43,889 bases of DNA. It comes from an uncultured Pseudomonadota bacterium (GTDB lineage: Bacteria > Pseudomonadota > Gammaproteobacteria > Burkholderiales > Methylophilaceae). The stretch covers positions 1 to 43,889 of the forward strand of contig CAIRBH010000017.1 in assembly GCA_903876765.1 (NCBI GenBank), in the 5' to 3' direction. A program made the translations under genes and the position numbers. The notes beneath the pieces were generated by a model. The model saw only the letters and a program-made list of their open reading frames with translations. It was not told where the DNA came from and did not search any database. This document shows positions 1 through 17,293 of the stretch, piece after piece (positions within the stretch are counted from its first letter, which is position 1; every line of letters starts with the position of its first letter).

Positions 1-119
1 TCCACGGTGATCACTCCCATTCTCCTGCTCATAGGTTGAGCAGAATAGTATCGGTACGTGGGTCAATTTCTAGTGCAATTTATACTCCTAAGTGGGTCAA
101 TTCTGAGTGCAATTCAACA
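1..119 (-). mobile_element. End of an IS21-family-like insertion sequence (partial, continues off the left edge)
   Basis: On the minus strand an ATG at 20-18 opens a frame reading M-G-V-I-T-V that leaves the window. It is preceded by a good ribosome binding site (AGGAGA, complement of 21-26). The frame resembles the start of IstA transposases. Between this start and the flanking gene lie two copies of a 24-bp motif (58-81 and 92-115), as expected for the multiple transposase-binding repeats at IS21-family ends. The likely tip is 5'-TGTTGAATTGCACTC read from base 119 leftwards, with a terminal TG as is usual for the family. Seen directly: repeats, start codon and RBS. Inferred: family and exact boundary, because the other end is outside the window. 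Confidence 0.5.
58..115. repeat. Pair of imperfect 24-bp direct repeats (IS terminal binding sites)
   Basis: The two copies, 58-81 and 92-115, both start GTGGGTCAATT and both carry AGTGCAATT near the end. They match at 20 of 24 positions and their starts are 34 bases apart. Tandem terminal repeats of this kind are a hallmark of IS21-family ends, where IstA binds. The right copy contains the stop codon of the neighbouring flippase gene. Confidence 0.6.
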
Positions 120-1392
120 CTATTCGCTTATTCCGACGAATGATTACTAGCATACCTATTAACGGTAATGCTGCCGCAATACTGGCGGCAACACCCGCGC
201 CAACTAAACCTATGCTTTTGGTAAGCACAACAAATAAACCCAAATATATCGTGGTAGACATCACATACAATCGTATGGCCTTGGCCGCGTCGCCCATAGC
301 ATAAAGTGCTGACCGCAGAGGCGAAGCAGCAAGGTCTAAGGTGGCTGCCAGTAACATGAACGTAAGCACTGATTTAGCTGCAACAAACTGTTGGCCTAGT
401 AATGTTGCCAATAAATGCTCACCAAAAAAATAACTGGTCATTATAAACAACAAGCCTAATGCGCCGCCAAACAGGGCAGTACGATAGGCAATGACATCAA
501 ATGCACTATTACCTTGATTCCAGTTTCTGGTGAGGTCAACAAAGATGACTTGGCGAATTAGTATTGCGGGTTTGGATAGCATGCTTGATAGCTCGCGTGC
601 TAGGCGTAACAGCCCCGCTTCCGTAGGGCCCAGCAGATAACCGACTAAAACCGTGGTGATGTGTTTAGGTAAAAGATCTAAGTTTGATTGCCAGTAAGTC
701 ATCCATAAAAAATGGCGCAACCCCTCAAAATCAGTTAATTTTGCACCTTTGACACTAGCCCCCGCTAGTGCTTGTTTAATATGGGTATTGTATTTATGCT
801 TGGCATGCCACATCAGGTAAAAGTTTTCAGCCGCATAAGCACTTGCCCAAATGGCAACAAATACTTGTATGGGCGCACTCAGCCACCAAGCAATCACCAC
901 ACCAAAAAATCGAATAGTCGGCGCTATCGTCATTTGCCGACCTAAAATATCAAAGCGATCATACAAGCGCAAAACACCCGCAGCAGTCCCAGTACCAGTA
1001 GTAATTAATACAAGGCTATAGGCCATGAGTAGCATGACATGCTGATTATCCATACCCATAGAGGGCCCAGCGAGAGGTGCCACAATAAGCGCTAAGAGCG
1101 TTGCTGCAATACAAGTTTGGCGATCTATGCGACGGCATAGTCTAATTAACCGACCTAGCGTATGGCTATCAGATTCATCATGAGCAGGCACACCATAGCG
1201 CACGACGGCATCCACTGAACCAAAATCAAGTAAGGCGCGTACTAACATGGCATAGGTGTGCATCAATACCACCATACCAAACTCAGCTGGGCCTAGCGAG
1301 CGCGCCATCAAAGTAGTCGCAGCAAAAGCCATGATAGCCGCCGCACCACGACCTCTGATTAAAATCCAGAAGTTAGCCAGCACACGGCGCAT
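97..1392 (-). CDS. Wzx-like polysaccharide/lipid flippase (MOP superfamily), 3' end replaced by IS sequence
   Basis: This multi-spanning membrane protein has the look of polysaccharide-biosynthesis flippases (oligosaccharidyl-lipid flippase group of the MOP superfamily). An amphipathic N-terminus reads MRRVLANFWILIRGRG, then ATTLMARSLGPAEFG, followed by about twelve hydrophobic segments. I chose the ATG at 1392 (431 aa). An upstream TTG at 1455 would add 21 residues that look unlike a membrane-protein start. Neither start has a strong RBS. The last codons (about LNCTQN and the stop) lie inside the putative IS end at 97-119, so the native C-terminal tail was probably cut and replaced. Length is within the family range, so it may still work. 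It lies 225 bp downstream of spt in the same direction. The substrate is unknown: an O-antigen-type lipid or, speculatively, a sphingolipid product. Confidence 0.8.
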   Translation of the reverse strand: MRRVLANFWILIRGRGAAAIMAFAATTLMARSLGPAEFGMVVLMHTYAMLVRALLDFGSVDAVVRYGVPAHDESDSHTLGRLIRLCRRIDRQTCIAATLLALIVAPLAGPSMGMDNQHVMLLMAYSLVLITTGTGTAAGVLRLYDRFDILGRQMTIAPTIRFFGVVIAWWLSAPIQVFVAIWASAYAAENFYLMWHAKHKYNTHIKQALAGASVKGAKLTDFEGLRHFLWMTYWQSNLDLLPKHITTVLVGYLLGPTEAGLLRLARELSSMLSKPAILIRQVIFVDLTRNWNQGNSAFDVIAYRTALFGGALGLLFIMTSYFFGEHLLATLLGQQFVAAKSVLTFMLLAATLDLAASPLRSALYAMGDAAKAIRLYVMSTTIYLGLFVVLTKSIGLVGAGVAASIAAALPLIGMLVIIRRNKRIVLNCTQN

Positions 1393-1504
1393 AGGTTTGC
1401 CGTTGTTTAAGTGTTTTTCAGATTTATTCACTAGCAGCCTATATTCGATAAACAAAAGCTATCGTCATTTTTTTACTATTGTAAGCGTGTATGAGAATTT
1501 GCTT

Positions 1505-1617: not shown

Positions 1618-2799
1618 TTAGGCTTTTGCGCGTAATTTAGCAAAAGCGGCACACACAGCATCGATTTGTTCTGAGGTATGAGCGGCGCTTACGCTACAGC
1701 GAATTAAACACACGCCGTTGGGTGTAGCTGGCGGCAGCATTAAATTGACATACACACCAAGCTTCAATAAATTATCCCAAAATTGCAACGCCGCTACTTT
1801 GCCTTCAAGCACTACTGCAACAACTGGGCTAGGTGGGCCACCTAAAGTGTAGCCAAGTGCGGTTAACCCAGCATGTAGAAGTTCTGCATTCTCATGCAAC
1901 TTTTGACGTAAATCTTTACCTGCCTCGAGTATTCGTAAAGCCTGTCTGGCTGATGCAATCGTCGCTGGCGCAGGGGATGCCGTAAAAATATAAGGGCGGC
2001 TGGCGTAGCGGATTAAGTCTAATTCAGGCAGATTGCTGACGCAGAAGCCCCCAGCACACCCCAAACTTTTACTGAAAGTGCCAACAATAAAGTCTACATC
2101 GTTAATGATGCCTAATTCTTCCACCAGCCCACAACCACGCTCGCCAAGTACACCAAAAGAATGGGCTTCATCAACCATTAGATAGCCACCAAACTCACGT
2201 TTTACTGCGACGATTTCTTTCAGCGGTGCGCGGTCGCCCAGCATACTGTATATGCCTTCTACTATAATTAATGCATCAGCTGCACGCTCGCCAAGGCGGC
2301 GTAAGCGTTTTGCTAAATCTTCCGCATTGTTATGACGAAAGCGAATGGTTTCAGCGCCGCCTAAACGACAGCCATCATAAATACTGGCGTGGCAGTCTGC
2401 ATCTATCAAGATTACGTCACCTGGCCCAGCCAATGCTGATATCATGCCTAGGTTAGCTTGGTAGCCGGTGGAAAATACTATCGCGTCACGTTTACCGTAA
2501 AATGCCGCCATTTCTTCTTCTAACTTGCGGTGTCCAGAATAACTACCGTTAGCCATTCGTGAGCCTGTCGTACCTGTACCTTCATGCTCTAACGCCAAGC
2601 GTGCACTGGCAATACACTCAGGATTAAAAGTTAAACCTAAGTAATTATTGGTGCCTGCCAATATAGTGTGGCGGCCATGAATCACGCCTTCAGTTGGTGA
2701 AATAATTTTATCTATTCTTACTGCAAACGGGTCTATGCCCAGAGCACCTAGTTCGGCACGGCCTTGTGCCAAACCTTCGAATTTAGTAAACAGTCCCAT
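1618..2799 (-). CDS. spt: Serine palmitoyltransferase-like alpha-oxoamine synthase (first step of ceramide synthesis)
   Basis: A 393-aa PLP enzyme of the alpha-oxoamine synthase family (Spt, BioF, Kbl, HemA). Visible marks are NNYLGL (51-56), the ring-stacking His in DADCHASIYDG (H137), VDEAHSFGVLGERG (D210, H213) and the Schiff-base lysine in TFSKSLG (K244). The expected reaction is serine plus a fatty acyl thioester giving 3-oxosphinganine, in the cytoplasm. The family alone does not separate Spt from BioF or Kbl. Context does: the gene overlaps the ACP gene by one base (TAATG) and sits with a CerR-like reductase, an acyl ligase and a bCerS-like acyltransferase, with no biotin or threonine genes nearby. 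The acyl donor is probably acyl-ACP from the adjacent carrier. Confidence 0.87.
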   Translation of the reverse strand: MGLFTKFEGLAQGRAELGALGIDPFAVRIDKIISPTEGVIHGRHTILAGTNNYLGLTFNPECIASARLALEHEGTGTTGSRMANGSYSGHRKLEEEMAAFYGKRDAIVFSTGYQANLGMISALAGPGDVILIDADCHASIYDGCRLGGAETIRFRHNNAEDLAKRLRRLGERAADALIIVEGIYSMLGDRAPLKEIVAVKREFGGYLMVDEAHSFGVLGERGCGLVEELGIINDVDFIVGTFSKSLGCAGGFCVSNLPELDLIRYASRPYIFTASPAPATIASARQALRILEAGKDLRQKLHENAELLHAGLTALGYTLGGPPSPVVAVVLEGKVAALQFWDNLLKLGVYVNLMLPPATPNGVCLIRCSVSAAHTSEQIDAVCAAFAKLRAKA

Positions 2800-3047
2800 T
2801 ATGTATTACCTATAATTTTTTCAACCTGTCTGGCAAGATCTCCAACGGTTTTCACGTCTGGCAAGATGCTCACAGGAATAGAGATATCAAAACTATCTTC
2901 AACAAACAATAGTAATTCCATAATCTGTAGTGAGTCTAGTTCTAAGTCGCCGACTAATTCGGTATTTTCATTAACCTCTACACGCCCTTTTGTGAAAGGT
3001 GCAAGGCCTTTAGTCATGTCGGTGAGAATGCGCTCATATTCTGTCAT
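2799..3047 (-). CDS. Dedicated acyl carrier protein of the ceramide cluster
   Basis: An 82-aa acidic protein with the phosphopantetheine attachment motif LELDSLQIME; the modified residue would be Ser39. It differs clearly from the housekeeping AcpP and lies between the CerR-like gene (8-bp gap) and spt (1-base overlap), so it is translationally tied to both. By analogy with the ACP beside spt in Caulobacter, it would be loaded by the neighbouring acyl ligase and present acyl chains to Spt. No phosphopantetheinyl transferase is encoded in the window, so a cellular one must act on it. Confidence 0.9.
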   Translation of the reverse strand: MTEYERILTDMTKGLAPFTKGRVEVNENTELVGDLELDSLQIMELLLFVEDSFDISIPVSILPDVKTVGDLARQVEKIIGNT

Positions 3048-3055
3048 TGGTTTTC

Positions 3056-4030
3056 CTATCTTGGTTTTTGAGTTGTATCAAACATGCCAGCTAATCCTTG
3101 CGCTAATTCACAAGTTGGCTGCCAACCAGTAATGCGTGTAATGTCGCTATTATCGCACAACCAATCCGTATGCGTTATTTCGCGTATCTTACCTGGCGTC
3201 AACATGGGAGAATATACCAACAATTTAGCGGCGGTAAAATTAATCCATGCAACGAGTTTTAATAAGGTGATTGGAATCGGTAAGCGTATTATTGTGCCGC
3301 CATGACGTAACACCATCTTTGCAATCCTTAATACACTAGGCCAATCATAGCCCCCTACATGACCATCATCTAATTCAAAAGTTTCGCCATAGCCTGTATC
3401 TTGAGTGAGCCAGTGCACCATAGCGGCGGCCAAGTCTTCTACATGTATCATAGAAAATCGTCCGTTAGCACCAGCGGGCAAAGGCGCAAAACCATTAGCC
3501 ATACTTTTAAATAGGGGCATTAACTCGCGATCCCCTGGCCCATAAACAGCAGGGGGGCGGAATATAGTCCATCGCAAAGGATGGGCAGTATTTTTGATCG
3601 CAACTTCGCCACGCCATTTACTGCCAGCGTAATGAGATAAGTTTGGCATACGCGCTGCCAGTGATGAAACTAGTAAAAAACGTGGTTGAGTAGCTTGGCA
3701 AGCGGCAGCTTGAGCAACATGCAGGGCACCTGCTTCATTGATTTGATCAAAGTCATCACGTGTCACACCACGCACTGCCCCTGCACAGTGAATGACGGCA
3801 TTAACATCCGCCACTAAAGCCTTGAGCGCATCAGCATTATTAAGGTCACCTGCAATCCAAGTCACCCCTTTGGCTTCGATTGGTACACGGCCAACTTGCG
3901 GTCTATATAAAGCACGTACCTGCCAACCTGCCTGAATCAACTGTCTGATCAGCGTGCGACCAATGAAGCCCGTTGCCCCCGTCAATGCGACTATATTATT
4001 TGCAATGGGGTAGGTGCGGGTCGCGGCCAT
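3056..4030 (-). CDS. cerR: NAD(P)-dependent epimerase/SDR-like reductase, probable ceramide-pathway reductase (CerR-like)
   Basis: A 324-aa extended short-chain dehydrogenase. The Rossmann motif GATGFIG is at 18-24, and the catalytic set is S122/S123, Y134 and K138 (YAGSK). A FRPPAVYGPGD substrate-domain motif follows. The C-terminal third carries a hydrophobic stretch (PIPITLLKLVAWINF) that could hold a lipid substrate or touch the membrane. In Caulobacter an epimerase-like protein of this kind next to spt and acp reduces the 3-keto group of the ceramide intermediate. The same neighbourhood here supports that role. An ordinary nucleotide-sugar epimerase is the alternative, but no sugar-nucleotide genes are adjacent. 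Confidence 0.8.
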   Translation of the reverse strand: MAATRTYPIANNIVALTGATGFIGRTLIRQLIQAGWQVRALYRPQVGRVPIEAKGVTWIAGDLNNADALKALVADVNAVIHCAGAVRGVTRDDFDQINEAGALHVAQAAACQATQPRFLLVSSLAARMPNLSHYAGSKWRGEVAIKNTAHPLRWTIFRPPAVYGPGDRELMPLFKSMANGFAPLPAGANGRFSMIHVEDLAAAMVHWLTQDTGYGETFELDDGHVGGYDWPSVLRIAKMVLRHGGTIIRLPIPITLLKLVAWINFTAAKLLVYSPMLTPGKIREITHTDWLCDNSDITRITGWQPTCELAQGLAGMFDTTQKPR

Positions 4031-4056
4031 AGGCTAGGTCAAGGCTGACTTTCTTG

Positions 4057-5826
4057 TCAAGCCTTCTTTAACAGAGTCTCTGGATCGGATGTAGATAGAC
4101 TTTTTTGTCTTAATAGATAATCTTTTCTTGCGCCTGAGCGTGATAGCTTGCCTGAAGAGGTGCGCGGCAAGGTATGGCGCGGCACCAATTCAATGGTGCA
4201 ATTAATACCTAGTTCTTCGTGAATTTCACGATGCAGGCGTTGTATTAAGTGATGCTGTTCATCCGCATCGGTAATATTGCATTGTACGATTAATACAGCA
4301 ACCTCTTCTTGCTCTGGGCCGGGCACAGACACGGCGGATGCGTCTACCGAACGTAATTCGGGTTGCCGTGTAGCAATCGCTTCAATATCTTGTGGCCATA
4401 TATTGCGACCATTGATGATTAACATATCTTTATGACGACCTGTGACAACAATGTTGCCATCAATCAGATAGCCCAAATCGCCAGTATCTAGCCAACCGTC
4501 GGCTGATAACACCAGTTGCGTTTGCTCAGGTAATTCAAAATAGCCCGACATCACACTAGGGCCACGCACGCTGATTCTGCCAATATGCATATCAGCCATG
4601 GGTTTGCCAAACTCATCACGTATCAGTACTTCATGGTGAGGCAGCACTGGCCCGCAACGCACAAAACTACTGCCAGTGTTAGGGCTGACCTTGGTTGCAA
4701 TAAAATTATCTGCTAAATCATTAGAATCAAGCCAATCTACTACTACCCCCGTGCCCAATGGAGCAAAACTAATTGCCAATGAGCTTTCTGCCATACCATA
4801 GCTTGGCACAAACGCTAATGGACTAAAGCCAGCAGGCGCGAGCAATTCAGAAAAGCGATCTGTTAATTCAATATGTATAGGCTCAGCACCAATACCGGCG
4901 ACACGCCAAGCTGTTAAATCATACAGTGCAATGTCTTCGGGGCGTAATCGACGCACACATAGCGCATAGCCAAACGGCGGGCTGAATGAGATAGTAGCTT
5001 TTGAATTAGTCATTAGCTCTAACCAGCGCCGCGGACGCATAGCAAAGTCTCGGGTATCTAAATAATCAATAGAACGCTGCGTAGCCATAGGCGCTAGTAA
5101 GCAGCCGACTAATCCCATGTCATGATAAAACGGGAGCCAAGAAACACAACGGTCATCTTGTCGTACATCTAATCCATAAGCTGAGCCAACTAAATTAGCC
5201 ATCACCGCTTGCTGAGTAATAATGACTCCGCGAGGAAAGCCAGTACTACCAGAAGTGTATTGTAGGTAGGCTGTTTCATGTAGGCCGCTAGCTTGCAATT
5301 GGCAATTTTTTTCTGGCAATTCGTCAAAGGCGCTGGCGGCGTTGACAAATTGCAGACCTAATCCTTCGGCCGCTTCAGTTAAAAAAGGTAGTAATTGGCT
5401 AGAAGATACGGCTATTGAGGCGCGGCAACCTTTAAGTAAGCCGTGTAATTGATTGACATAGGCTTTATGACCACCAACATGTATGACCGCTGGCAGCGCA
5501 ACCGGGACTAAACCAGCATACTGGCATGCGAAAAAGAAACGCAAAAAATCTGGGTTGGTTTCTGCCACGATGGCAACGCGTGCGCCTCGCTCTAGCGGAA
5601 ATGACAGTAGACGCTTAGCTAAAGTTTGTGCTTGATCACGCAGTGTGCGGTAAGGCAATACGCTAGCTAGTTTGCCATTGCCCGCATAAAAGTTTGCGCC
5701 AGACTCACCTGCCGCAGCATAATCTAAAGCGCTGGCCAATGTGTCGAAATCAGCTAAGCGCAACGGCAATGCGCTTAAAGTCGGAGTTGCCGAAGCTGTG
5801 ATGTCAACATTTGATACTTGATTCAA
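4057..5826 (-). CDS. Fatty acyl-AMP ligase / acyl-ACP synthetase of the ceramide cluster
   Basis: A 589-aa member of the ANL (adenylate-forming) superfamily. It shows the P-loop TSGSTGFPRG (191-200), YGMAESSL, DTGDLG, then GRHKDMLIINGRN followed by WPQDIE, and a C-terminal TSSGKLSR carrying the catalytic Lys. The RN-WPQDIE signature resembles fatty acyl-AMP ligases that pass acyl-adenylate to a carrier protein rather than to CoA. The expected job is to activate a free fatty acid and load the ACP two genes downstream. It is the first gene of the leftward cluster (26 bp before the CerR-like gene). The first residues lack a signal peptide, fitting a cytosolic or membrane-peripheral enzyme. Chain-length preference cannot be read from the sequence. 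Confidence 0.85.
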   Translation of the reverse strand: MNQVSNVDITASATPTLSALPLRLADFDTLASALDYAAAGESGANFYAGNGKLASVLPYRTLRDQAQTLAKRLLSFPLERGARVAIVAETNPDFLRFFFACQYAGLVPVALPAVIHVGGHKAYVNQLHGLLKGCRASIAVSSSQLLPFLTEAAEGLGLQFVNAASAFDELPEKNCQLQASGLHETAYLQYTSGSTGFPRGVIITQQAVMANLVGSAYGLDVRQDDRCVSWLPFYHDMGLVGCLLAPMATQRSIDYLDTRDFAMRPRRWLELMTNSKATISFSPPFGYALCVRRLRPEDIALYDLTAWRVAGIGAEPIHIELTDRFSELLAPAGFSPLAFVPSYGMAESSLAISFAPLGTGVVVDWLDSNDLADNFIATKVSPNTGSSFVRCGPVLPHHEVLIRDEFGKPMADMHIGRISVRGPSVMSGYFELPEQTQLVLSADGWLDTGDLGYLIDGNIVVTGRHKDMLIINGRNIWPQDIEAIATRQPELRSVDASAVSVPGPEQEEVAVLIVQCNITDADEQHHLIQRLHREIHEELGINCTIELVPRHTLPRTSSGKLSRSGARKDYLLRQKSLSTSDPETLLKKA

Positions 5827-6005
5827 TTGGCATCCTTGAAATTAATATTATGATAAAAATGATTGCAGCCAAGCATTAGGCCAAAAATATACATGGCAAA
5901 TTTACCGCACAGTATAGCAGAATATGGCAAAACGATTTTCTCTCGTATCATATTTAGGTAAGCTATTTGTGTTAGAATTTCCGCAAACCTTTAGTTTTAT
6001 TCATA

Positions 6006-7163
6006 ATGATGACTCCCACCACACAAGATTCTGCAACTCTACGCATCGTTCCTGTTAGCAACAAAGCAGATTTAGATCAATTTATTCGCGTTGCTGAACA
6101 GATTTTTAAAGCCGATCCTAATTGGATAGCGCCTTTGCGACTTGAGCGTCAAATGCACCTGTCAACTAAGCACAATCCCTATTTTCAACACGCAAAATGG
6201 CAGGCTTGGGTGGCTTGGCGAGGTGAACGTCCTGTAGGCAGAATTAGCGCGCAGATTGATAACTTACATCTTGAGCGCTATAACGATGCTACGGGTTTTT
6301 TTGGCATGTTAGATGCCGAAGATAATGCTGAAACTTTCGCTGCACTTATTAGCACAGCTGAACTATGGCTACGCGAACAAGGCATACAAAGAGTACGTGG
6401 GCCATTTAATCTATCTATTAATGAAGAAATGGGTTTGTTGATTGAGGGTTTTACTACGCCACCAGTGTTTATGATGAGCCATGCCTTACCCTATTATCGC
6501 GAGCACATTGAGCAATGTGGCTATCACAAAGCGGTAGATACGCTGGCTTATTTAATTGCGCCAAATTTTGAAGCGCCAACTGTCATGCGGCGATTGGTGG
6601 CAATAGCTTCTGAGCGCGTGCGCGTCAGACATTTAGACCGCTCACGTTTCAATGAGGAAATTTCATTATTGCGAGATATCTTTAATGACGCTTGGTCAGG
6701 GAATTGGGGATTTGTGCCGTTTACTGAAGCTGAATTTCAAGAACTAGGTAAGAATCTGAAATTTTTACTAGACGATGAATATATTCAGATTGCTGAAGTG
6801 GATGGTGAGGCTGCTGCCTTTATTATCGGCATGCCTAATATCAATGAGGCTATACGCGACTTAGGCGGCAAGCTGTTCCCGTTTGGCTGGTTAAAGCTGC
6901 TATGGCGGCTTAAAGTTCGACGCCCTAGTAGTGGCAGAGTGCCGTTAATGGGCGTACGACAAAAATTTCAACGTACCCGGCTCGGCCCTGGCTTAGCATT
7001 TTTGATTATAGATGCGGTGCGAGCTGAGTTACACAAACGTGGCGCACACAAACTAGAGTTGTCATGGATATTAGAAAGTAATGCTGGTATGCGTAATATC
7101 ATTGAATCTATCGGCGGCGCAATCTATAAACGTTATCGCGTCTACGAACGCCAGCTTGAGTGA
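6006..7163 (+). CDS. bcerS: GNAT-superfamily N-acyltransferase, probable bacterial ceramide synthase (bCerS)
   Basis: A 385-aa protein with an atypical GNAT fold. An N-terminal region carries PVGRISAQIDNLH, the middle carries RGPFNLSINEEMG, a conserved-looking DAWSGNWGFVPF follows, and the C-terminal acceptor-like region reads ELSWILESNAGMRN. I recognise this as the family of Caulobacter bCerS, which N-acylates the sphingoid intermediate. It is unrelated to eukaryotic ceramide synthases. It is divergent from the acyl-ligase gene, with a 179-bp shared upstream region, so both halves of the pathway may share control. The start is the first of two ATGs (6006/6009); no strong RBS is visible. A generic GNAT is the alternative, but the length and neighbourhood fit bCerS well. 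Confidence 0.8.
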   Translation: MMTPTTQDSATLRIVPVSNKADLDQFIRVAEQIFKADPNWIAPLRLERQMHLSTKHNPYFQHAKWQAWVAWRGERPVGRISAQIDNLHLERYNDATGFFGMLDAEDNAETFAALISTAELWLREQGIQRVRGPFNLSINEEMGLLIEGFTTPPVFMMSHALPYYREHIEQCGYHKAVDTLAYLIAPNFEAPTVMRRLVAIASERVRVRHLDRSRFNEEISLLRDIFNDAWSGNWGFVPFTEAEFQELGKNLKFLLDDEYIQIAEVDGEAAAFIIGMPNINEAIRDLGGKLFPFGWLKLLWRLKVRRPSSGRVPLMGVRQKFQRTRLGPGLAFLIIDAVRAELHKRGAHKLELSWILESNAGMRNIIESIGGAIYKRYRVYERQLE

Positions 7164-7254
7164 GCGGTGTAATGTCCAAATTCAACAATCAAATATGGGC
7201 TAAGCCCTTGCCGAAACAGGGTAATTAAGCAATAATTTAATCTTTGCAATATAG

Positions 7255-7269
7255 CAGTTTAAAAAACTG
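7255..7269 (+). terminator. Possible weak terminator hairpin after bCerS
   Basis: CAGTTT-AAA-AAACTG forms a perfect 6-bp stem with a 3-base loop, followed by ACTTTTGG, a poor U-tract. A second small hairpin (GGGC-TAA-GCCC, 7197-7207) lies closer to the gene. Either might end the bCerS transcript; neither is strong. Confidence 0.3.
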
Positions 7270-7314
7270 ACTTTTGGAAGAATTCAATCAAGGTTTTATC
7301 TGATTTTCTGTATG

Positions 7315-7346
7315 ACTTAAATTGCTAGCAGCATTCCAATTTAAGT
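7315..7346. promoter_or_regulatory. Perfect 10-bp inverted repeat upstream of tkt (operator candidate)
   Basis: ACTTAAATTG (7315-7324) and its exact complement CAATTTAAGT (7337-7346) flank a 12-base spacer, ending 45 bases before the tkt start. The length, symmetry and position suit a dimeric regulator site controlling tkt and perhaps the glycolytic genes downstream. A 5'-leader hairpin is the other reading. The regulator is not encoded nearby. Confidence 0.45.
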
Positions 7347-7391
7347 GAGCGTGAATCGTAAAATCTCAAGCTAATCATTAGGGAGAAAACT

Positions 7392-9407
7392 ATGGCAACA
7401 CGTAAAGACCTAGCCAACGCTATCCGTGCGTTATCTATGGATGCGGTACAAAAAGCGAACTCTGGTCATCCAGGTGCGCCTATGGGCATGGCAGAAATCG
7501 CTGAAGAATTATGGAACAATCATTTGAGCCATAATCCAAAAAATCCTGAATGGGCAAATCGTGACCGTTTTGTTCTTTCTAATGGCCACGGCTCTATGTT
7601 GATTTACTCATTGCTACATCTGACTGGCTATGCTTTGCCTATGGATGAGCTTAAAACATTCCGTCAATTGCATTCAAAATGTGCAGGTCACCCTGAATAC
7701 GGTTATGCACCAGGCGTAGAAACGACCACAGGTCCATTAGGTCAAGGTATTGCTAATGCGGTTGGTTTTGCCATGGCTGAAAAATTACTTGCAGACCAAT
7801 TCAACAAGCAAGGCCATTTCGATGGTTTTAATCAAGCCATAGACTACAACATTGTTGATCACCGCACCTACGTGTTTTTAGGTGATGGTTGCATGATGGA
7901 AGGCGTTTCTCATGAGGCTTGTGCATTAGCCGGTACCTGGGGTTTAGGCAAATTAACGGCATTCTGGGATGACAACGGCATTTCTATCGATGGCCATATT
8001 GAAGGTTGGTACACAGACGATACCGCGAAACGTTTTGAATCATACGGTTGGCATGTGCAATCAGTTGATGGTCATGACGTTGCTGCTATCGGTAAAGCGA
8101 TTGAAGCGGCTAAAAAAGTAACAGATAAGCCATCATTGATTTGCTGTAAAACAGTCATTGGTATGGGTTCACCTAACAAATCAGGTTCACATGATTGCCA
8201 CGGTTCTGCCCTAGGTTTAGATGAAGTAGCGGCTACGCGTGCAAACATTGGCTGGCCTCATGAGCCATTTGTCATTCCAGCGGACGTTTATGCGGGTTGG
8301 GATGCAACTGCTAAAGGCGCGGCGACTGAAGCGGCATGGAATGATAAATTTGCAGCTTACGCTAAAGCGTTTCCTGCTGAAGCGGCTGAATTTAAACGCC
8401 GTATGGCCGGAGATTTACCAGCTAACTGGCAATCAGCGACAGATGCGGTGATTGCTGCTACTAACGAAAAAGCTGAAACAGTTGCAACACGTAAAGCGTC
8501 ACAAAACGTCATTGGTGCTTTAGCCCCATTATTACCAGAATTCTTAGGCGGTTCAGCCGACTTAACTGGCTCTAACTTAACTTCATGCAGTAGCTTTGTG
8601 CATGTAGATGCAAAAAAACCAGGCAACTATATTTCATACGGCGTGCGTGAATTCGGTATGTTCGCCATCATGAATGGTATGGCTTTGCATGGTGGTTTAG
8701 TGCCATTCGGCGGTACTTTCCACATGTTCTCTGACTATGCTAAGAGCGCGCTGCGCATGGCGGCATTAATGAAACAACGCACTATTGCGGTATTAACCCA
8801 TGATTCTATCGGTCAAGGTGAAGATGGTCCTACCCATCAACCTATCGAAAATACCGCTGGTTTACGTTTAATTCCTAATATGGACGTATGGCGTCCAGGC
8901 AACTCAACTGAAACTGCAGTTGCATGGGTTGCGGCAGTAGAGCGCAAAAATGGCCCATCTAGCTTGGTATTAAGCCGTCAAAACGTGCCAGGTATGAAAC
9001 ATGATGCCGCACAATTTGCTTTAATGCGTCAAGGTGGTTATGTGCTGTCTGATGTTGCAGGTAAGGCAGATGTGATTATCATTGCTAACGGTTCAGAACT
9101 TGAATTGGCAGTCAAAGCCGCGGCTGAACTCAACGCAGCTGGCACTAAAGTACGTGTGGTTTCAATGCCATCTACCAATGTATTTGACCGTCAAGATAAA
9201 GCTTACAAAGACAGCGTGCTTACGCCAGGCGTAAAACGCGTGGCGGTAGAAGCTGGGGTAACTGACTTCTGGCGTAAATATGTAGGTCTAGAAGGTGCAG
9301 TAGTAGGCATAGATACCTTTGGCGAATCAGCTCCAGGCGGCGTGTTATTAAAACACTTTGGCTTTACTGTTGAAAACGTAGTAGCTACGGTTAAATCGGT
9401 ACTCTAA
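7392..9407 (+). CDS. tkt: Transketolase
   Basis: A 671-aa, full-length thiamine-diphosphate enzyme that moves two-carbon units between sugar phosphates. Visible are [11 protein letters not shown] with H26, SNGHGSML with H66, CAGHPE with H100, the ThDP motif start LGDGCMMEG (164-166) and the pyrimidine-domain [14 protein letters not shown]. In a methylotroph it regenerates ribulose 5-phosphate for formaldehyde fixation as well as serving the pentose phosphate pathway. The start has a strong RBS (AGGGAG, 8 bases upstream). It leads the tkt-gap-pgk-pyk block, but a terminator after it suggests it is at least partly a separate transcript. Confidence 0.98.
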
Positions 9408-15308: not shown

Positions 15309-16016
15309 TTAAATACGATGCAAACTAGCGGACAAAGCTTTTAGCTCTTTTTCTGCTAATTTGTAATCTGGGTAAATACTGGCAACAGTGGCCCAAAACT
15401 TAGCCGAGTGGTTCATTTCTTTTAAATGTGCCAGTTCATGGCAAACCACATAGTTGATAATGTGCGGCGGCGCTTGCAATAAGCGCCAATTGAGCCGAAT
15501 TTGTTTTTTTGAATTGCAGCTTCCCCAGCGCGAGCTAGCGTTAGACAGGTTAAACGCGTTGAAACTCACACCTAATTTGCTGGAAAATATTTCTAGTCGT
15601 CTAGTAAAGTCTATCAGCGCTTGTTTTTTGTACCACTGTATGACTTTACGGGCGATTAAGCTGGCGTCGTCATGATGCGGCATCGCCAGCTGCAATACGC
15701 CAGGCTCGTACTCAACCGCCTTGCTACGAAGGTTATGCTCAACGGCTAAGGTAATGCTATTGCCTAAGTACCAGAGCGTCTCACCATGCTGCCAGTGTAT
15801 GGCGGGTAATTTATTTTCTACCAGTGCGTTTAATTTTTTGCGTATCCAATCTGCTTTTTGCTCAATAATGCCTTCAAGTTGAGCTTGTGAGATACGCTTA
15901 GGTGCATGTACCACCAAGCCATGGGCGGTAATTTTTAAGCCCACAGTGCGGCGCTGGCGACGTTCTAACTGATAATGTAGCTGGTCGCCTGAGGCTAAGG
16001 TAATCGCATGACTCAT
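15309..16016 (-). CDS. YgjP/SprT-like zinc metallopeptidase (M48-type, DUF45)
   Basis: A 235-aa protein with the zincin motif CHELAHLKEMNHS: H193, E194, H197 and a third ligand candidate H203. Upstream is the family signature SSRWGSCNSKKQIRLNWRL. There is no signal peptide, so it is cytosolic. Family members (YgjP) are metal-dependent hydrolases of poorly known substrate. Its start overlaps the stop of plsC by 4 bases (ATGA), indicating translational coupling in a gmhB-plsC-ygjP series. Confidence 0.9.
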   Translation of the reverse strand: MSHAITLASGDQLHYQLERRQRRTVGLKITAHGLVVHAPKRISQAQLEGIIEQKADWIRKKLNALVENKLPAIHWQHGETLWYLGNSITLAVEHNLRSKAVEYEPGVLQLAMPHHDDASLIARKVIQWYKKQALIDFTRRLEIFSSKLGVSFNAFNLSNASSRWGSCNSKKQIRLNWRLLQAPPHIINYVVCHELAHLKEMNHSAKFWATVASIYPDYKLAEKELKALSASLHRI

Positions 16017-16720
16017 GATGCGGTTAGCGTGGCCATTTCTGTTTCAATCCAGTTTTCTACTAGCTGATTTAAGGCGTCTGTTTTTAAGCCTGCCGTTTGA
16101 ATAGCTTGGCCTATGTGTATTTGAATAAGCCCAGGTGTTTTTATAAAGCCTTTGGGCCAAAAATCACCTGCATTATGCGCAACTGGCAGAACGGCTGTTT
16201 GCGTGTGTGTGGCAAGCCAAGCACCACCTATATGATACTTGCCGCGTTTTTTTGGGGCAATTCTAGTGCCTTCTGGAAATATCACTACCCACAAACCCTT
16301 GGCTAACCTATCTTTGCCTTTTTCTACTAGCTGTTTTAGCGCCTCACGTCCAGCGGCACGATTAATCGCAATTGGTGATGACATGGCCAAACCCCAGCCA
16401 AATATGGGAATCCACAATAATTCACGTTTGAGCACATAGACTTGAGTGGGAAAAATGGCCTGAAATGCGAACGTCTCCCAAGTGGATTGGTGCTTGCTTA
16501 GGATAATAGTCGGGCTATTGGGGATATGCTCCAAGCCTGTGATCTGATGGCGAATATTACAAGTGACTTTTAGCCACCATAACATGCTGCGCGCCCAGCC
16601 TGAAATAAGCTTATTGCGTGTTACCGGCTTAAGTGGCAATGCCAGCAATGCGATTAAAGTAAAAATTGGCGCAGTCATGACTTGCCCAATAAAAAACAAA
16701 CATGAACGCAAAAACAGCAT
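16013..16720 (-). CDS. plsC: 1-acyl-sn-glycerol-3-phosphate acyltransferase (PlsC family)
   Basis: A 235-aa membrane-associated acyltransferase that adds the second acyl chain in phosphatidic acid synthesis. An N-terminal hydrophobic segment (about 5-30) precedes the catalytic block LSKHQSTWETFAF (H77) and the substrate motif FPEGTR (148-153). The usual HX4D is HX4E here (E82), a variant I recall from relatives of this subgroup, so probably natural. It follows gmhB by 12 bases and overlaps the YgjP-type gene. Lyso-lipid specificity cannot be inferred. Confidence 0.9.
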   Translation of the reverse strand: MLFLRSCLFFIGQVMTAPIFTLIALLALPLKPVTRNKLISGWARSMLWWLKVTCNIRHQITGLEHIPNSPTIILSKHQSTWETFAFQAIFPTQVYVLKRELLWIPIFGWGLAMSSPIAINRAAGREALKQLVEKGKDRLAKGLWVVIFPEGTRIAPKKRGKYHIGGAWLATHTQTAVLPVAHNAGDFWPKGFIKTPGLIQIHIGQAIQTAGLKTDALNQLVENWIETEMATLTAS

Positions 16721-16732
16721 ACCGTCCTTTAA

Positions 16733-17293
16733 TTAATCTTGCCCTGCAATAATGTGTTGTACAGCTTCAGCGAGGTCGGCACACACCCAAGTGTTTTCAG
16801 GCAAGGCTTTATCGATAGATAGTTTAGAGGCAGCTAAAGTGGCCTCACCTTTGCCAGTCAGCACTAAAATCGGCTGGCAGCCTGCCGCCGAAAAAGCCTG
16901 TAAATCTCTTAATGCGTCACCCACAGCGGGCACGCCGTGCAATTCTGTTGAAAAGCGTCTGCCTATATCTTCTATCATGCCTATGTCTGGCTTGCGGCAA
17001 TGGCAGTGGTCGTCTGCCGCATGCGGACAATAAAAAATAGCATCCACCCGTCCGCCCACTATCGCTAATTCTCGATTCATTTTTTCATGAATACTATTGA
17101 GCGTGGCCATATCAAATAAGCCTCGACTAATCCCCGATTGATTAGTCGCAACCGCCACTCGGAAGCCAGATTGGTTGAGTAAAGCAATCGCATCAAGGCT
17201 GCCCGCTATTGGCAGCCATTCATTAGGATTTTTAATGAAATTGGCAGAGTCGCGATTAATCACCCCATCCCTGTCTAAAATCACTAATTTCAT
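16733..17293 (-). CDS. gmhB: D-glycero-beta-D-manno-heptose-1,7-bisphosphate 7-phosphatase
   Basis: A 186-aa HAD-superfamily phosphatase of the ADP-heptose pathway for LPS inner core. The nucleophile motif LDRDGVIN gives D7 and D9. ATNQSGISRG is HAD motif II. The zinc-binding loop CPHAADDHCHCRKP supplies C89, H91, C97 and C99. The placement glyQ-glyS-gmhB-plsC is common in betaproteobacteria. The start ATG lies 15 bases after the glyS stop, so the genes are likely cotranscribed. Confidence 0.95.
   Translation of the reverse strand: MKLVILDRDGVINRDSANFIKNPNEWLPIAGSLDAIALLNQSGFRVAVATNQSGISRGLFDMATLNSIHEKMNRELAIVGGRVDAIFYCPHAADDHCHCRKPDIGMIEDIGRRFSTELHGVPAVGDALRDLQAFSAAGCQPILVLTGKGEATLAASKLSIDKALPENTWVCADLAEAVQHIIAGQD

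Follow-up and report, generated by a model that had tools for sequence, protein, structure and literature searches.

Ceramide is a sphingolipid best known from animals and some bacteria, and the locus described here raises the question whether a member of the Methylophilaceae carries the genes for making it. The locus lies at one end of a stretch of 43,889 nucleotides (CAIRBH010000017.1 in assembly GCA_903876765.1; hereafter the window), which is one whole contig (C17) of a host genome of 1,914,550 bases in 53 contigs that is 90.3% complete. A first-pass annotation had placed five intact ceramide genes at positions 1618–7163 and had guessed a host from the Methylophilaceae. Both statements hold: the open reading frames (ORFs) were confirmed at these coordinates, all five genes are present and intact, and, judged by the nearest loci with the gene for bCerS, which are those of Methylotenera, the host belongs to this genus of the family. 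We regard the locus as a complete, intact and conserved proteobacterial ceramide cassette of the ‘Rhodobacteria’ type with an enterobacterial-type accessory set, and assign a probability of roughly 85% to the ceramide core of this reading; the tailoring part is less sure. The gene identities rest on homology, gene order, conservation, selection and co-occurrence. For the five enzymes, the reactions are those expected from characterized homologs, and the roles of the flippase, the kinases and the hydroxylase are suggested by neighborhood and protein family only.

As far as literature searches show, a ceramide pathway is new for the Methylophilaceae, and the kind of gene set is already known. 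Among the Beta-proteobacteria, the set has been published for Nitrosomonas eutropha (PMC9386255; this paper, PMC11324152 and PMC11844350 are cited from excerpts). In the open-licence literature we found nothing on sphingolipids in Methylophilaceae or on serine palmitoyltransferase in Methylotenera, and the terms ‘sphingo’ and ‘ceramide’ are absent from the main text of PMC11844350, which belongs to the literature on Methylotenera and membrane lipids. The membrane lipid itself is predicted only: it would be based on ceramide and located in the outer membrane, and an enterobacterial-type (ygh) route would perhaps phosphorylate and 2-hydroxylate it. More novel than the core are the ygh-type accessory genes and the role predicted for them. 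If the prediction is true, a sphingolipid would occur in methanol-using methylotrophs of a genus found beside lake methanotrophs, whose lipids serve as environmental markers (PMC11844350), and these ceramides might be wrongly attributed to other organisms.

Identity of the five core genes

The Spt protein scores 634.9 bits against the curated equivalog model NF047599 (‘SerpalmtaseBetaP’, cut-off 500), and its best match in the PDB is the serine palmitoyltransferase 2x8u (E 8.6e-132). An alignment with 2x8u and 2jg2 shows conservation of the residues K244 (the pyridoxal phosphate lysine), H137, D210, H213 and R367. In a phylogenetic tree, 47 Spt rows are separated from 18 rows of the BioF/Kbl type with 100% support in the Shimodaira-Hasegawa-like approximate likelihood ratio test (SH-aLRT); three of the 18 were named by the family scan, one as BioF and two as Kbl. 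This tree, calculated without bootstrap, and those of the kinases and of bCerS are quick trees with SH-aLRT values only, and long branches were flagged for the loci L095, L027 and L026, that of L027 near the split just described (G, L and C numbers are our handles for genomes, loci and contigs). Spt shares its superfamily with BioF and Kbl, and the BioF model gives it 329.9 bits. This value is, however, below the cut-off of 426.45, which is passed by a separate, true BioF elsewhere in the host genome (442.3), and the partner genes are co-inherited with Spt. There is thus a negligible chance that Spt represents an additional BioF or Kbl paralog surrounded by generic fatty-acid genes, and by cut-off, tree and separate BioF this assignment was rejected; the grouping of Spt apart from both enzymes had been proposed as a test in the first-pass annotation and was borne out. 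The Spt motif pattern was present in 54 of 76 rows, which include the 18 BioF/Kbl-type rows. Four of the 58 Spt rows miss it, namely three copies of one genome’s gene with a G-to-C exchange and one row with F-to-Y, with the lysine kept.

More weight has to be given to the possibility that Spt uses alanine, glycine or cysteate and makes a different long-chain amino-lipid, with 1-deoxysphingolipid or capnine-like products. As an alpha-oxoamine synthase it belongs to a superfamily with varied amino acid substrates, and the cysteate acyltransferase 28eh is among its PDB relatives. Its closest solved relatives are nevertheless the serine palmitoyltransferases 2x8u and 2jg2 (E 1e-132 to 1e-125, compared with 3.1e-59 for the cysteate enzyme), the curated Spt equivalog cut-off is passed, and CerR and bCerS are present. 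The conjugative plasmid pDCB2 of Diaphorobacter sp. JS3051 (L026, 4734–10182) carries aasR-acpR-spt next to genes for a non-ribosomal peptide synthetase, a cytochrome P450, a phosphopantetheinyl transferase, nucleotidyltransferases and a glycosyltransferase. With such neighbors, the sphingoid front end may supply another product there, and front ends of this kind may thus be tied to other products. On balance we consider an amino acid other than serine improbable for the window. By analogy to its relatives, Spt is predicted to condense serine with an acyl thioester; Spt of Escherichia coli B uses acyl-AcpR for the synthesis of 3-oxo-sphinganine (PMC9386255).

As in E. coli BL21, the acpR gene directly precedes spt, and the two ORFs share one base. 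CerR is 41% identical to the product of the E. coli BL21 epi gene, which has the same operon place, and contains the motifs TGATGFIG at residue 17 and YAGSK at residue 134; its pattern is present in 60 of 63 sequences. AasR, with 48% identity to its E. coli BL21 homolog and the motif YTSGSTGFPRG at residue 190 (pattern in 59 of 60 sequences), is predicted to acylate AcpR and not CoA. Key motifs could be located by position in Spt, AcpR, CerR and AasR; the roles given to their residues are presumed.

The bCerS protein matches nothing in Pfam or NCBIfam, and because the PDB sequence search gave chance-level matches only and was therefore uninformative, the fold was used. It is a tandem GNAT fold, in agreement with the GNAT family to which we assume bCerS to belong. 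The protein is 52% identical to E. coli YghO. Together with loci from Azotobacter, Pseudomonas, Nitrosomonas and E. coli BL21 it belongs to a single family, members of which are neighbors of spt in, among others, E. coli BL21, Azotobacter and Pseudomonas. The earlier proposal to separate bCerS from other GNATs was covered in part, by the occurrence beside spt and the tandem fold; the tree was built without Caulobacter CC_1154 and generic GNATs. In this tree the Methylotenera rows do not group with Nitrosomonas but with metagenome-assembled genomes labeled Beta- or Gammaproteobacteria and with Rhodanobacter (97%). A further ceramide cassette is located on the Pseudomonas plasmid pPNP1 (L024, 3724–10194); an IS5 transposase gene (4006–4859) lies in its bCerS region, and bCerS matches in two pieces on either side. 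The features of the window are compiled in Table 1; an Rfam scan of the window gave no match at gathering scores.

Table 1. Features of the ceramide locus and its chromosomal neighbor in the window.
Feature	Position	Strand	Evidence
Polysaccharide/lipid flippase-like membrane protein	97..1455	-	PF01943 51.7 bits, cut-off 28.2; directly downstream of spt
spt, serine palmitoyltransferase, 393 aa	1618..2799	-	NF047599; PDB match; tree
acpR, specialized acyl carrier protein, 82 aa	2799..3047	-	PF00550; DSL motif, Ser39
cerR-like SDR reductase, 324 aa	3056..4030	-	PF01370/PF13460; Rossmann and YxxxK motifs
aasR, acyl-ACP synthetase / fatty acyl-AMP ligase, 589 aa	4057..5826	-	NF006624 763 bits, cut-off 600
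Intergenic region, 179 bp, between divergent aasR and bcerS	5827..6005	.	ORF coordinates
Putative bCerS (yghO/aca family), tandem-GNAT ceramide N-acyltransferase, 385 aa	6006..7163	+	
tkt, transketolase; chromosomal neighbor outside the system, marks one cassette site	7392..9407	+	PF00456 515.9 bits

Distribution and chromosomal sites of the cassette

The bCerS profile detected 10 of 187 Methylophilaceae genomes, all of which belong to the host’s genus, one of 24 genera. Spt passed the cut-off in seven of the 187, and in an eighth genome (G009) the gene is cut by the contig end; all eight genomes with Spt also have bCerS. A separate function of bCerS in two genomes without Spt (G002 and G006) was considered and rejected, since bCerS lies at a broken contig end in both. 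Fisher’s test of the co-occurrence of Spt and bCerS among 37 congeners gave p 5e-5, a descriptive value only, as related genomes were treated as independent. With a threshold of 1e-10, the search for bCerS gave no match in 53 of 61 genomes. Within the order, 17 of 399 genomes and seven of 159 genera have bCerS, and one distant relative with 190 bits was met in G400. Twelve of these 17 genomes are members of a single family (f16), whose five representatives in the bCerS tree fall among Nitrosomonas. According to the counts in family and order, the trait is rare in these bacteria and not new to the order.

Within the genus the cassette is found at no fewer than three chromosomal places. It adjoins tkt in G000, G015, G020 and G175, thiG in G170 (and, judged by their shared flank, in G002 and G006 as well) and, in G001, arsA-type arsenic genes. 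In all eight other congeners checked, tkt is free of an adjoining cassette, and one of them (G001) has the cassette elsewhere; a gene for a GFO/IDH/MocA oxidoreductase lies within 10 kb upstream of tkt in all eight, whereas the examined tkt loci with the cassette gave no sign of it. The differing sites together with the empty tkt loci indicate that the cassette moved or was gained more than once. Composition gave no sign of recent transfer (G+C 0.459 in the cassette compared with 0.448 in the rest of the window). In the Spt tree, the sister of the Methylotenera rows is a groundwater beta-proteobacterium. Moreover, 23 records of a plasmid collection match Spt: 13 from Roseomonas, three from Pseudomonas, three from Escherichia (two of them of chromosome length) and one each from Rahnella, Klebsiella, Diaphorobacter and Sphingomonas. 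At the far end of the cassette an operon resembling resistance-nodulation-division (RND) efflux systems was recognized by eye in G000, G015 and G175 (loci L188, L187 and L186); it comes after dnaN-gyrB-like genes in G000 and after ssb-like genes in the other two.

The five genes recur in the same order in congeners at 67–95% identity, which shows that the cassette is not a chance arrangement. For six cassette genes compared with three congeners, the ratio of non-synonymous to synonymous substitution rates (dN/dS) was 0.03–0.15; 15 of 17 comparisons gave a ratio, the exceptions being acpR against G020 (saturated) and aasR against G175, for which the chosen segment ran past the terminal stop. 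The cassette genes are thus under purifying selection. A single TAG counted within bCerS of G170 was considered as a premature stop and discarded; it is the terminal stop only. The small number of carriers in the family could be taken for the mark of a decaying relic without function, but the intact ORFs, the low dN/dS values and a layout that is kept at different chromosomal places make such decay very improbable.

Accessory genes of the ygh type

The first-pass annotation was right about the five genes and missed the wider locus, which continues with a flippase gene after spt and with ygh-type accessory genes. The flippase gene has a TTG as listed start codon, and the true start may lie further in. 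It is a homolog of E. coli BL21 YghQ (24% identity, E 3e-35), occupies the same position in the congeners G020, G015, G001 and G175, and is a candidate sphingolipid flippase. Beyond it, the congener loci contain genes for a DUF2147 protein, a member of the Asp/Asn-hydroxylase family, two P-loop proteins, a glycosyltransferase (in some loci), a protein matching no Pfam family and a third P-loop protein. The hydroxylase scores best against the ornithine-lipid acyl 2-hydroxylase OlsC, with 218 bits (cut-off 450), followed by LpxO with 115 bits (cut-off 500), and is likely a lipid hydroxylase of its own subfamily.

The kinase tree consists of three clades, YghR, YghS and YghT, each with Methylotenera and Enterobacteria, and by this grouping the three P-loop proteins are assigned as orthologs of the thymidylate-kinase-like E. 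coli proteins YghR, YghS and YghT. They stay below every named Pfam and NCBIfam cut-off. A structure model of moderate quality (pLDDT 79 from 11 sequences), whose PDB matches are thymidylate kinases with a TM score of about 0.55, suggests a P-loop kinase fold and does not speak to the substrate; no report giving yghR, yghS or yghT a lipid role was found in the open-licence literature. The no-Pfam protein is 29–31% identical to the product of an E. coli gene that is flanked by yghQ and the YtfJ-family gene; for the host protein and its BL21 counterpart the value is 31% over 268 residues (E 4e-49). This protein of about 290 amino acids, which has no NCBIfam match either and is kept together with the ceramide locus, is encoded in L030 at 15858–16748 and in L151 at 6576–7445.

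Kinase genes were detected in six of 61 genomes: G000, G001, G002, G015, G020 and, with one partial gene, G025. All three are present in G001, G015 and G020, in the last of which the T-like gene lies on another contig than the core. G006 and G009, both fragmentary assemblies, have core genes and no kinase match. In the host, contig C16 ends in the genes for a YghT-like protein, the no-Pfam protein and a YghS-like protein. About 115 bases follow the last YghS-like match, and the YghS-like frame extends to the contig end; in the window, 96 bases precede the flippase stop. As judged from G020, C16 and C17 are probably neighbors, and the gap of about 2 kb would hold the genes for the YghR-like protein, the hydroxylase and DUF2147. 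The searches for kinases and hydroxylases found neither the YghR-like gene nor the hydroxylase in the host, where the only match of the hydroxylase family is a 36% paralog. A congener that is 99% complete and has neither spt nor bCerS (G025) carries partial genes for a YghT-like and the no-Pfam protein on a contig of 3.2 kb (L159, contig 25), which may be a relic, in separate use or contamination.

From these assignments the following route is proposed. AasR would load a free fatty acid onto AcpR, and Spt would condense acyl-AcpR and serine to 3-oxo-sphinganine. The flippase would carry the resulting lipid, or a derivative of it, through the inner membrane, and the YghR/S/T-like kinases would decorate it, most likely by phosphorylation of the head group. 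In the congeners, the OlsC/LpxO-like dioxygenase would most likely 2-hydroxylate an acyl chain, and the decorated lipid would be destined for the outer membrane.

Several points weigh against reading the locus as a ceramide cassette with ygh-type accessory genes. The identity to CC_1154 and CC_1164 of Caulobacter rests on E. coli, other relatives and the ortholog list published in PMC9386255, and there is no curated model for bCerS and CerR. Moreover, four of the carrier genomes are metagenome assemblies, the YghR-like, hydroxylase and DUF2147 genes of the congeners are lacking in the host assembly (for DUF2147, no search aimed at it was made there), and G025 has its partial ygh-type genes without the core.

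Comparison with known ceramide systems

In Caulobacter crescentus, CC_1160 is presumably a ceramide kinase. The genes CC_1162–1165 and CC_1154 provide the same five functions as the window, with the same order spt-acp-epi-aas by gene numbers (PMC9386255; compared without direct alignment). The neighbor order given for Caulobacter in the first-pass annotation was therefore correct, but E. coli BL21 is the closer match, with all five genes together and yghO divergent, whereas in Caulobacter bCerS is separate from the other four. Among the seven strains of a figure in PMC9386255, the five genes are clustered only in C. crescentus and E. coli BL21. The Caulobacter cluster further includes LptF2/G2 and a CC_1160-type ceramide kinase (PMC11324152), neither of which was found in the 90%-complete host genome: it has one LptF/LptG pair only (two adjacent PF03739 genes on C33) and no diacylglycerol-kinase-type ceramide kinase. 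The sole PF00781 match (25 bits, barely over the Pfam cut-off) was considered as such a kinase and rejected; it is an NAD kinase. Hydroxylation in Caulobacter is ascribed to CC_0202, a member of another family, DesA (PMC11324152).

The published beta-proteobacterial set of N. eutropha consists of Neut_0458–0461 and Neut_1100 (PMC9386255). By gene number its aca gene is far from the rest, unlike in the window, and its partners are of the type for ceramide phosphoglycerate (CPG), here CPG2 (PMC11324152). Nitrosomonas bCerS form another clade than those of Methylotenera in the bCerS tree, in which N. eutropha does not appear by name. Clusters of the Azotobacter vinelandii/Pseudomonas type (L100, L044, L047, L057) share the divergent five-gene core and have homologs of diacylglycerol kinase (DAGK), cytidine diphosphate (CDP)-alcohol transferase and LptF2/G2 beside it.

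The related loci compared here are the best 80 named loci of at least 593 bCerS pattern matches. Among them, aasR is divergent beside bCerS in 43 of the 67 loci with at least 2.5 kb upstream, and all five genes are present in 26 of the 44 loci of at least 19 kb. Within these 26 loci, which are not independent and whose limited flanks make the counts lower bounds, ygh-type kinases occur in at least eight and DAGK or CDP-alcohol genes in at least 13, and both are combined in one, Pseudomonas marginalis L095. These counts bear on the alternative that the lipid is a CPG or CPG2 as in Caulobacter and Nitrosomonas, with head-group genes elsewhere in the genome. Such genes can be scattered, as in Sphingomonadales (PMC11324152), and besides the incompleteness of the host genome, the CDP-alcohol transferase and orthologs of CC_1152/CC_1153 were outside the searches made. 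The overlap of the two gene groups in a single locus, the NAD kinase as only DAGK-family match of the host and the single LptF/LptG pair argue against it, and we regard this alternative as unlikely.

For a ceramide cassette with ygh-type accessory genes, the closest counterpart is the yghO-aasR-epi-acpR-spt locus with yghQ-yghT of E. coli BL21(DE3), which has the same five genes, the same order and the divergent yghO of the window as well as orthologous YghR/S/T, a homologous no-Pfam protein and a flippase of the same superfamily. Core identity between the two is 41–59%, and the flippase shares only 24% with YghQ. The BL21 locus contains lptF/lptG and a YtfJ-family gene which were not seen in the Methylotenera loci, whereas Methylotenera adds the OlsC-like hydroxylase and DUF2147. 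A match to the spt DNA of the window is present in 4056 of 5426 complete E. coli genomes; the ten matches listed cover 58% of the gene with about 67% identity. By its conservation in two classes, the locus links the E. coli genes yghR, yghS and yghT, which have no assigned role, to ceramide tailoring. We tentatively suggest, as an idea still more doubtful than secure, that Proteobacteria have two ceramide tailoring systems: the CPG/CPG2 system of Caulobacter, and a second one common to Enterobacteria and Methylotenera with the three paralogs YghR/S/T, the no-Pfam protein and a YghQ-like flippase, joined in Methylotenera by the OlsC-like 2-hydroxylase, in which the kinases would successively phosphorylate the ceramide or a sugar head group and yield an anionic outer-membrane sphingolipid in E. 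coli and lake methylotrophs alike.

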